Source: an uncultured Hyphomicrobiales bacterium (lineage in GTDB: Bacteria; Pseudomonadota; Alphaproteobacteria; Rhizobiales; Beijerinckiaceae). Taken from it: DNA of 38,397 nt. Shown here one piece after another: positions 32,140-37,425 of the stretch. The position numbers and the translations under genes are program-made. A model generated the notes under the pieces. The model saw nothing but the letters and a program-made list of their open reading frames with translations, was not told the DNA's origin and made no database searches. Position 1 is the first letter of the stretch. Every line of letters starts with the position of its first letter. The stretch covers positions 1 to 38,397 of the forward strand of contig CAIZEI010000155.1 of assembly GCA_903931945.1 (NCBI GenBank), read 5' to 3'.

Positions 32140-32370
32140 GCGTCTTTTCCCGAAAACCGTCACGTTCGGCTTGCGTCCGTCAAAGGGATTGCCGGGCGTC
32201 ATCGAGGCATTGGAGCTGAAACTGAGCTTGGCGCGGTGAAGCGTTCAGTTGGCGGCGACAATTGGATTGCTGCGACACATGAACGGTGTATTGTGCCAGG
32301 CAAGCGAAGATCAATTCGACAACCTCCGGCCAGCGCCGGGTTGCAACGCAAAAGACCTCGGGAGGGCGAT

Positions 32371-34092
32371 ATGCGAGATTTCAAAAGCTTTGGAAGCGTG
32401 CTGACCGGATTGGCGCTGGTCGGCGTGATCGGCCTGGGCCTGTCTGTTTCACCTCTTCTGGCGGGCGCCCCGGCGATGGCGCAGGGCGCGGCGCCAGCAG
32501 CGCTGACCGGCAAGGTGACCTCGACAGCGGAAGGCGCGATGGAAGGCGTCGTCGTCAGCGCCAAACGCCAGGGCTCGACGATCATGGTGTCGGTGGTCAC
32601 CAATGCGCAGGGACAATACCGTTTCCCCAAGGACCGGCTGGAGCCGGGCGTTTACGACATCACCATGCGCGCTATCGGTTACACCCTGCCAAAAACCACG
32701 GCGACGCTGGCGGCCAACGCGCCTGCCGAGCTCAATCTCGATTTGAAGAAAGCCTCGCCCGATCGACTGCTGATGCAAATGTCGAACAGCGAGCTGCTTC
32801 AAAGCGCGCCGGGAAACGACAGCCAGAAAACGTCCATGCTCCGTTGTCTTGATTGTCACGGTTTCCAGCGACCCTTCTTTTCAAAGGAAACCGCCGACGA
32901 AATGGCGCTGACCGTGCAGCGCATGGGCGCGCATACCGCGAACGCCTCGCCGGATTTCCCGTTCTTCGCACAGGACGCGTCCGAGAAACTGTCAAAGCCG
33001 CCGTCGCAGGGCGAGAAGGACCTTGGCGCCTATATCGCCTCGATCAACATGAGCAAGGGCGACAGCCTGCCCTACCCGCTCAAGACCATGGCGCGGCCCA
33101 AGGGCAAGGCGACGCAGGTGATTGTCACCACCTATGATCTGCCCGGCCTTGCCGCGCCGCACGACACGTTGTTGGATCCGCGCGGCAACGTCTGGTTCTC
33201 CGACTTCCAGGAGCAGTTCATCTCCAAACTCGACCCCAAAACCGGCAAGGTCACGCAGTACCCGGTGCCTGTGGCCAAACCCGGCTTTCCCACCGGCGGG
33301 CTGATGATCACGATGGATAAGGACGGCAACATCTGGGAAGGCATGATGGGACAGGCCCAGATTGCGAAAATCGATCCCAAGACGGAAGAGGTGAGTTTCC
33401 TCATGGCCCCCGAATGGGACAAGGGCGACACGCGCTTCACCATGATCGACGCGCTCCATTCGAATGTCGATGGCAAGCTGTGGACCAAGACGAATGGCGG
33501 GCCCGATCCCGATCATTCCAATAAACTCTATCAGGTCGAACTCGCCACCGGAAAATTCACCGAGGTCTTGCCGCCGCCAGGCAAGCGCGACATCGCAGCC
33601 TATGGTCTTGTGACCGATCTCAACAACAATGTTTACGGGCTCGATAACAATTTTGCCCAAAAGCAGATATGGCGCACCGACGCCAAAACCGGACAAACCA
33701 CCTATATCGATGTGCAAAATGGCGGCGGGCGACGCGGCCATATCGACGCGCAGAACCGGCTGTGGTTTTCGCAGTTCTATACCAACCGCTATGGCATGTA
33801 TGACCCCGCCGCCAATAAAGTCACGCTCTATGACGTGCCGACACCCTTCGCCGGCGCCTATGACGTGCAATTCGACGACAAGAAATACGTCTGGGGCGCG
33901 GACATGAGCACGGATCTTGTCCAGCGCATGGACCTGGATACCGGCGAATGGACCTCCTATCTGCTGCCGATTTCGATCAACGTGCGGCACGTGGACGTTC
34001 AGAAGACGGACAACCCGACGGGCCTCACCAGCATGTGGGCCGAGGGCCAGCAGAACGGCAAGATTGTGCACGTTGAGCCGCTGGCGCCTTAA
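32371..34092 (+). CDS. Secreted fusion: carboxypeptidase-regulatory-like domain, CxxCH haem motif and Vgb-like beta-propeller
   Basis: This 573-residue exported protein has a signal peptide ending PAMAQ (near residue 38). Residues 42-125 form a carboxypeptidase-regulatory-like/beta-sandwich domain (LTGKVTSTAEGAMEGVVVSAKR ... GQYRFPKDRLEPGVYDITMRAIGY). Residues 155-225 carry one c-type haem motif, CLDCH (C159, C162, H163), with methionines nearby that could be the second ligand. Residues 245-573 contain about seven propeller blades (DPRGNVWFSDFQ, DKDGNIWEGMMG, NVDGKLWTKTNG, NLNNNVYGLD-like, DAQNRLWFSQF and so on), as in virginiamycin B lyase and related proteins. GGAGGG precedes ATG 32371. The domain order suggests a periplasmic redox protein that recognises a ligand, not an antibiotic lyase. 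It follows the Liv operon on the same strand. Confidence 0.8.
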   Translation: MRDFKSFGSVLTGLALVGVIGLGLSVSPLLAGAPAMAQGAAPAALTGKVTSTAEGAMEGVVVSAKRQGSTIMVSVVTNAQGQYRFPKDRLEPGVYDITMRAIGYTLPKTTATLAANAPAELNLDLKKASPDRLLMQMSNSELLQSAPGNDSQKTSMLRCLDCHGFQRPFFSKETADEMALTVQRMGAHTANASPDFPFFAQDASEKLSKPPSQGEKDLGAYIASINMSKGDSLPYPLKTMARPKGKATQVIVTTYDLPGLAAPHDTLLDPRGNVWFSDFQEQFISKLDPKTGKVTQYPVPVAKPGFPTGGLMITMDKDGNIWEGMMGQAQIAKIDPKTEEVSFLMAPEWDKGDTRFTMIDALHSNVDGKLWTKTNGGPDPDHSNKLYQVELATGKFTEVLPPPGKRDIAAYGLVTDLNNNVYGLDNNFAQKQIWRTDAKTGQTTYIDVQNGGGRRGHIDAQNRLWFSQFYTNRYGMYDPAANKVTLYDVPTPFAGAYDVQFDDKKYVWGADMSTDLVQRMDLDTGEWTSYLLPISINVRHVDVQKTDNPTGLTSMWAEGQQNGKIVHVEPLAP

Positions 34093-36429: not shown

Positions 36430-37425
36430 TTATTGTTTTTCGATGTTGTTTTCACGCGCCACGCGCTCCCACGTCGCAGATTCTCGCGCCAGCATGGCGG
36501 CAACCGATTGAGTTGTGCCACCCGTCACATCGAGCCCAAGGGCCTTGAATTTTGCGCGCACGCTGGCCTCCTCCAGCGCTCGATTAAACATTTCATTGAG
36601 AGACTGCGCTATATTTTGCGGCATGTTCGGCGGACCGACCAACACGCGCCAGGCCGTCAGTATGAATTCTTCCGGGTATCCAAGTTCAAGCAAAGTTGGA
36701 ACGTCAGGAGCGTCCGCTGACCTTTGAGGCGATCCAACTGCAAAAAACTTCAGTTTCCCGTCGCGATACCAGGGCAAAAGCGAAGCTGCCGACAGGATCG
36801 CGAAATCGACTTCGCCATGCAGGAGCGCCTGCGTTGCCGGCCCCGCGCCCTCGTACGGCACGTGATTCATTTGCACCCCGCTGAATTTTTCCAGAAGCAA
36901 TGTCGACATGTGATTGCCGCCGCCAATTCCCGGCGAGGAGTAATGCACACCGTCGGGATGCGCTTTTGCATATTCAATTAAATCCTTCAGCGAGTCGCCC
37001 GGAAAATCGCCGCGCGCCACCACAACAAGCGGCTGCGTGGCGATCTCAATGACGGGCGTCAACATTTTTGGGTCATAGGTCAGATTCTTGCGCGTCACCG
37101 GATTGAAAACCATAGGCGACGCTGGAGATGCAAACAACGTATAGCCATCAGGTTTGGCCCGCATCACGACGGTTGCGCCAATAGCGCCGGTCGCACCAGG
37201 TCGCACATCAATTTGCAGCGGCTGCCCGACATGCTCGCGAAACCAGTCGCTCAGAATGCGGATCTCGAATTCCATCGAGCTCCCCGCCGAAGAACCTACA
37301 ACAATGGTGATGGGATGCGAAGGAAGTAAACTCGCTTCAGAGCGCGCGTCAACAACCGCCATGGCGATGCTTGCCAATGCGACAGAAATCGAAATCATGC
37401 GCAGACGGCTTTTATCCAATTTCAT
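36430..37425 (-). CDS. Bug-family (TctC-like) periplasmic solute receptor
   Basis: A 331-residue secreted binding protein of the Bug family, which captures carboxylates and related small molecules. A signal peptide is followed by HPITIVVGSSAGSSMEFEIRIL, the usual first strand and phosphate-like loop, then VDVRPGATGAIGA-type sequence (IDVRPGATGAIGATVVMRAKPDGYT), HVPYEGAGPATQALLHGEVDFA and VPTLLELGYPEE. Tripartite tricarboxylate transporter membrane genes are not nearby, as is common for Bug proteins. The start overlaps the end of the M20 gene by 14 bases, so the two formed an operon. The ligand is probably the substrate or product of that amidohydrolase. Confidence 0.88.
   Translation of the reverse strand: MKLDKSRLRMISISVALASIAMAVVDARSEASLLPSHPITIVVGSSAGSSMEFEIRILSDWFREHVGQPLQIDVRPGATGAIGATVVMRAKPDGYTLFASPASPMVFNPVTRKNLTYDPKMLTPVIEIATQPLVVVARGDFPGDSLKDLIEYAKAHPDGVHYSSPGIGGGNHMSTLLLEKFSGVQMNHVPYEGAGPATQALLHGEVDFAILSAASLLPWYRDGKLKFFAVGSPQRSADAPDVPTLLELGYPEEFILTAWRVLVGPPNMPQNIAQSLNEMFNRALEEASVRAKFKALGLDVTGGTTQSVAAMLARESATWERVARENNIEKQ

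Follow-up and report, generated by a model that had tools for sequence, protein, structure and literature searches.

A haem c motif joined to a virginiamycin B lyase-like propeller in a widespread family of putative periplasmic oxidoreductases

What might a protein do that carries, behind an export signal, a haem c attachment motif and a propeller of the type found in virginiamycin B lyase (Vgb)? The question is raised by a gene at 32371-34092 on the forward strand of a 38,397-nucleotide stretch of DNA (the window; contig CAIZEI010000155.1) from an uncultured Hyphomicrobiales bacterium. The reading frame has an ATG start and, as read from the sequence, a good ribosome site; a GTG-started alternative of 618 residues, adding 45 ahead of the signal, is possible. 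A preliminary description of this DNA, made from its letters, had placed a signal peptide, a beta-sandwich, a CLDCH motif (C159/C162/H163) and seven propeller blades in this one frame, and Pfam matches and structure prediction confirmed the arrangement. The beta-sandwich is recognised as CarboxypepD_reg (PF13620, 49.4 bits against a cut-off of 32.3) and the propeller as Vgb_lyase (E 2e-15, over the cut-off), while the helical module between them holds the only CxxCH of the protein. This domain order is conserved, with CarboxypepD_reg matching all 72 members of the family alignment. The signal peptide, covering residues 1-37 by sequence, was likewise borne out: the A37-Q38 pair is kept in at least 98% of the best 120 of at least 1285 homologues (E <= 1e-3; the window protein is among these 120), and residues 1-38 are predicted with a local distance difference test score (pLDDT) below 50. 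The protein is thus very probably exported to the periplasm.

The CxxCH motif is retained in 119 of these 120 homologues, and all 119 have a methionine 22 residues past its histidine. In an alignment of 81 proteins (the window protein, eight paralogues from its own genome and 72 of 80 fetched loci), C159, C162, H163, M185, H264, D265 and G309 are each found in 81/81. Eight of the 89 proteins fell outside this alignment through the picking of open reading frames (ORFs); read in frame separately, all eight carry CxxCH, the methionine and Pro-His-Asp (PHD), bringing CxxCH to 89/89, and two of them (L032 and L034) fail the Arg-Arg (RR) pattern as searched. Only two cysteines are present in 51 of the 81 proteins, a number that speaks for haem attachment rather than for a general cysteine-rich site. 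Shuffling the window protein 200,000 times produced a CxxCH on eight occasions, and the genes for CcmE, CcmF_C and CcmH lie together on contig C36 of the same genome. Taken from sequence, covalent attachment of haem at CxxCH is a strong inference. The preliminary description had treated homologues without CxxCH as the finding that would count against it; the close homologues support it, whereas exceptions occur at greater distance. Distant proteins with a haem motif include L017-L019, L109, L110 and L114-L117, and none is present in L111, which begins at a contig end, or in the bare propeller L118. A distant paralogue in the same genome (L020:6190-8304) reads CFQSCH, a C-x3-CH variant, at the haem position.

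In the propeller, the channel strands of blades 1-7 carry H264-D265, T308-G309, T357-M358, Y411, R454-R455, Y497 and R539, a set that is nearly or fully invariant apart from T308 and blade 3 (T357-M358). We take E268, E284 and H228 of Vgb to be part of its catalytic set alongside His270. The H270A variant of Vgb is inactive (title of PDB 2z2p), and blades 6 and 7 of Vgb are where the article on CylK (PMC8916777) places the bound substrate analogue and Mg2+. The preliminary description had proposed comparing the propeller's centre with these residues and had, rightly, cautioned against the Vgb name. In direct blade register, the register itself being an assumption, H270, H228, E268 and E284 are replaced by R539, Y497, N537 and Q560, and in a shifted register E284 lands on F279, again without a Glu. 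The lyase site therefore appears to have been lost. With scores of 29.6 and 33.7 against the NCBI VgbA and VgbB models (cut-off 600), the protein is, as far as its residues can tell, no streptogramin lyase. It shares the seven-bladed Vgb-type propeller with Vgb (PDB 2z2n, 2z2o, 2z2p and 2qc5; PF24684). The Vgb structures, however, contain chains of 299-300 residues made up of the propeller alone, whereas the window protein carries an export signal, a haem motif and two domains besides the propeller and, in direct register, is without His270 and the residues that accompany it.

The conserved Arg and Tyr residues suggest that the channel accommodates an anionic ligand. A ligand in the propeller had also been envisaged in the preliminary description; a conserved polar channel set in which it could sit is present, though no particular substrate or cofactor is fixed by it. 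A partial parallel is offered by CylK, a Vgb-like seven-bladed propeller with an N-terminal domain above its top face and an active site at the domain interface that uses Arg and Tyr (PMC8916777, eLife 2022). CylK differs in that its N-terminal domain is a calcium-binding beta-roll and its chemistry alkylation, and no haem is mentioned in the part of that article consulted.

The haem motif and the channel set were also compared among more distant relatives. A 408-residue paralogue from the same genome (L110) has a signal-like N-terminus, a haem module and a propeller, but no CarboxypepD_reg. A search with it returned at least 7373 proteins, possibly including other architectures; among the best 120, CxxCH occurs in 119, PHD in 120 and RR in 119, and the protein without CxxCH (P0212, 302 residues) lacks its N-terminus. 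At least 97% of the 120 keep H122, D123, Y251, R293, R294, Y337 and R381, each of which corresponds by blade to a member of the channel set in the window protein. Both families thus share a CxxCH followed by Met (at +20 and +21 past the His in the L110 family) and PHD, Tyr, RR, Tyr and Arg at corresponding blades. They differ in the beta-sandwich and in blades 2 and 3, for which the L110 family has a further His each (H164, H208) and the window protein no His at all. As a separate observation, the conserved H122, H164 and H208 of L110 (L110:704-1927) lie in the channel strands of blades 1-3 and could form a metal site of three His; the window family has just the one in blade 1. No characterised member of this haem c and propeller family without the beta-sandwich was found. 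As a bare-propeller control, homologues of L118 from a same-genus genome were collected with a 291-residue query that starts inside its open frame and not at a start codon; in the best 120 of at least 6191, CxxCH was found in none and PHD in two. A crude hydrophobic test for export was passed by 78 of these 120, indicating that export is not special to the haem-bearing forms. In a tree of the propellers (57 selected rows, quick method, no bootstrap), all 41 haem-bearing rows, one of them the C-x3-CH variant L020, fall on one side of a single branch and the bare forms on the other (Shimodaira-Hasegawa-like approximate likelihood ratio test, SH-aLRT, 99.9). On the haem-bearing side, the rows with the sandwich require two changes, since L117 falls among the haem-only rows. 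By these comparisons, haem and pocket thus appear to travel together.

The preliminary description had implied a periplasmic electron-transfer sensor or enzyme, a proposal that is partly supported. Our best reading, on which confidence is evenly poised, is that the window protein is a soluble periplasmic mono-haem c propeller oxidoreductase with a putative ligand, catalytic activity and electron path. The periplasmic redox genes that recur in the flanks of some loci, and the weak similarity of related haem modules to cytochromes, both detailed below, also speak for it. The Sec signal would take the protein to the periplasm, where the Ccm system of the genome would attach haem to C159 and C162, with H163 and M185 as the likely axial ligands. 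The beta-sandwich may serve as a stabilising or docking module, and the top channel of the propeller (H264/D265, Y411, R454/R455, Y497, R539) would hold a small anionic, carboxylate-like ligand. In the most likely activity, this ligand, or a partner docked at the channel, would be oxidised and one electron passed via the haem to the periplasmic cytochrome pool. More tentatively, since we consider it possible but rather doubtful, the haem c and Vgb-like propeller proteins as a whole may form an undescribed class of periplasmic oxidoreductases, in which a lyase-type propeller has been turned into a redox site wired to haem c. In some soil bacteria this class would have expanded to around twelve copies in a genome, with a substrate of its own for each copy.

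Several results weigh against an oxidoreductase. Shared ancestry confounds the joint presence of haem and channel set and could by itself account for it, and the RR pattern is also present in 28 of the 120 bare-propeller control homologues. One homologue of the 120, P0102, reads CLDCR (a single sequence on a single contig). The haem module of the window protein is matched by no Pfam model, its isolated structural model gave no significant Foldseek match (best E 2.6), and the propeller shows no evident site for a known redox cofactor. Nor do the flanks of the loci compared reveal a conserved operon partner. In the tally of near ORFs (up to 1.2 kb away; 120 of 151 eligible, from 69 loci), TctC and NHL were each matched 7 times, MmgE/PrpD 4 and NMT1 3 times, and redox families are not prominent; PQQ (pyrroloquinoline quinone) dehydrogenases and cytochromes appear in the far control (at least 4.5 kb; 120 of 175, from 55 loci), which gave TctC 5, NHL 2, PQQ 3 and Cytochrome_CBB3 3. 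These tallies each show 25 of about 122 families, with many single matches outside them, and the picking of ORFs may take false antisense frames. Propeller proteins with NHL repeats, at 7 of 120 near and 2 of 120 far ORFs, are neighbours of the gene in some fetched loci. Gene context does not settle the function.

The alternative that survives best, although we judge it rather unlikely, is an electron carrier with a docking propeller, in which a separate periplasmic dehydrogenase would supply the electrons that the haem shuttles, the propeller and beta-sandwich only binding this partner. Protein binding is a common role of propellers and Ig-like domains, and the many paralogues could pair with many dehydrogenases. 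Such enzymes do flank several loci: in the 89 loci (up to 8.0 kb upstream and 9.9 kb downstream, 8.0 and 4.3 kb for the window, many flanks ending with the contig), flank clusters include PQQ dehydrogenases at 11, CytoC_RC-type cytochromes at 10, molybdenum enzymes of the aldehyde-oxidase type at 7 and GMC oxidoreductases at 4, the clusters being single-linkage and each named from one member. Within 700 bp, however, these fall to PQQ 1, CytoC_RC 5, molybdenum type 2 and GMC 2 (TctC-like 5, MmgE/PrpD 3), there are no conserved adjacent partner genes, and the conserved polar channel set exceeds the needs of docking.

Less probable, to our minds, is a redox- or ligand-sensing binding protein that acts with transport or signalling components. 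The window gene follows an ATP-binding cassette (ABC) transporter operon on the same strand, with a receptor of the branched-chain-amino-acid type; a similar ABC ATPase (named by reading) occurs at 7 of the 89 loci, 6 besides the window, one of them within 700 bp, and TctC-like receptors flank 20, the window's own included. The weight of the TctC receptors is reduced by the 133 matches to this family in the genome itself and by their being nearly as common far from the gene (5/120) as near it (7/120), and Pfam recognises no signalling domain in the window protein. A conserved operon was considered and rejected, as the ABC genes of the window are matched in the flanks of 0 of 14 related loci, of which three (L027, L028 and L064) have less than 0.5 kb upstream and others end with the contig.

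An alternative without haem, in which the CxxCH would be a site for another metal or a disulphide, is improbable, even though the module is recognised by no cytochrome model or fold match. Folded alone by AlphaFold2 the module reached pLDDT 92.4, but it was modelled without haem, so that the missing fold match does not show a new fold. A sequence search of the PDB gave weak matches, the best to cytochrome c 3a9f (E 0.055), and Pfam cytochrome models match weakly, with at most 3 of 67 family members per model at E up to 1; Cytochrome_CBB3 is weakly similar to the haem modules of relatives. Quinohaemoprotein amine dehydrogenase, cytochrome cd1 and the PQQ quinohaemoproteins couple a periplasmic haem c module to a propeller. 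The haem domain of the first is weakly matched by related modules (PF09098 in 3/67 members, TIGR03908 in 5/67), but by neither model in the window protein; all three have a propeller of another family, and no second cofactor was recognised in the window protein. Haem is favoured by such weak cytochrome matches, by the source name 'cytochrome C' of the relative P0219, and by the conservation, at fixed spacing, of both cysteines, the histidine and a methionine in a protein that is exported and whose genome has Ccm genes. A Vgb-type lyase cleaving C-O bonds, with the haem module as an accessory, is very improbable, given the replaced catalytic set in direct register, the Phe in place of E284 in the shifted one and VgbA/VgbB scores far below 600.

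The combination of domains, for which the preliminary description had no characterised example, is not rare, as the at least 1285 homologues and the at least 7373 for the shorter paralogue attest. Searches of the open-access literature, judged by titles and abstract openings of up to 20 articles each, yielded no well-studied family with this architecture and no study of a haem-bearing Vgb-like protein. The window protein is an ordinary member of a widespread, apparently unstudied family, and it is the family that is the interesting object. The protein's own genome encodes seven more copies of full length (32-55% identity), a ninth full-length match with 28% and others more distant, which makes 25 matching stretches in total; CxxCH is present in each of the eight copies at L001-L008, one of them the window's. 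Of 24 same-genus genomes, 9 contain matches with E below 1e-200, whereas matches at E <= 1e-60 occur in 1 of 200 phylum genomes and 1 of 297 order genomes, in both cases the window's own. Among the best 80 of 160 relatives, records are labelled Acidobacteria, Alpha-, Beta-, Gamma- and Deltaproteobacteria, Rokubacteria and Bradyrhizobium, and the tree places the Acidobacteria protein L030 together with L002 of the window's genome and with the window clade (SH-aLRT 100). The distribution looks patchy, which together with the local expansion suggests horizontal transfer in the history of the family. Neighbouring same-strand copies occur in same-genus genomes (G011:C160, G011:C452, G015:C368 and G016:C15).

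Named homologues among those listed are nearly always called virginiamycin B lyase or streptogramin lyase, apart from P0219 and a few 'hypothetical protein' entries. The name of an antibiotic-resistance lyase thus sits on proteins whose catalytic residues are apparently replaced and which possess a haem-binding module; such names can inflate resistance surveys and mask a possible large family of periplasmic redox proteins. Although its family often bears the name of an enzyme that destroys antibiotics, the window protein is more likely a redox protein. The features of the gene are collected in Table 1.

Table 1. Positions in the window of the gene, its predicted domains and its conserved residues
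Feature	Position	Strand	Basis
Gene, 573-residue secreted CarboxypepD_reg - haem c - Vgb-like propeller protein	32371..34092	+	ORF, Pfam, structure prediction
Shine-Dalgarno-like GGGAGGG before ATG	32360..32366	+	read from sequence
Signal peptide, residues 1-37, predicted cleavage AMA/Q	32371..32481	+	sequence; A37-Q38 conservation; pLDDT
CarboxypepD_reg beta-sandwich, residues 45-125	32503..32745	+	PF13620 E 6e-13
Helical haem-c module, residues ~129-248	32755..33114	+	structure prediction; no Pfam match
CLDCH haem-c attachment motif, C159/C162/H163	32845..32859	+	conservation among homologues
M185, candidate distal axial haem ligand, 22 residues past H163	32923..32925	+	conservation
Seven-bladed propeller, residues 249-573	33115..34089	+	structure prediction and comparison with Vgb structures
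H264-D265 (PHD), channel strand of blade 1	33160..33165	+	81/81
G309, blade 2 channel position	33295..33297	+	81/81
Y411, blade 4 channel position	33601..33603	+	80/80
R454-R455, blade 5 channel position	33730..33735	+	R454 79/80, R455 80/80
Y497, blade 6 channel position; Vgb H228 there in direct blade register	33859..33861	+	80/80
R539, blade 7 channel position; Vgb catalytic H270 there in direct blade register	33985..33987	+	79/79

Downstream of the gene, the window encodes an isochorismatase-fold protein, a TctC receptor (36430-37425, in a genome of 5 Mb) and part of an amidohydrolase-like protein. At L009 (7645-10536, minus strand), the paralogue L002 stands beside genes that we read as thiamine-diphosphate-enzyme-like and Rieske-oxygenase-like, each of the two clusters spanning three loci.
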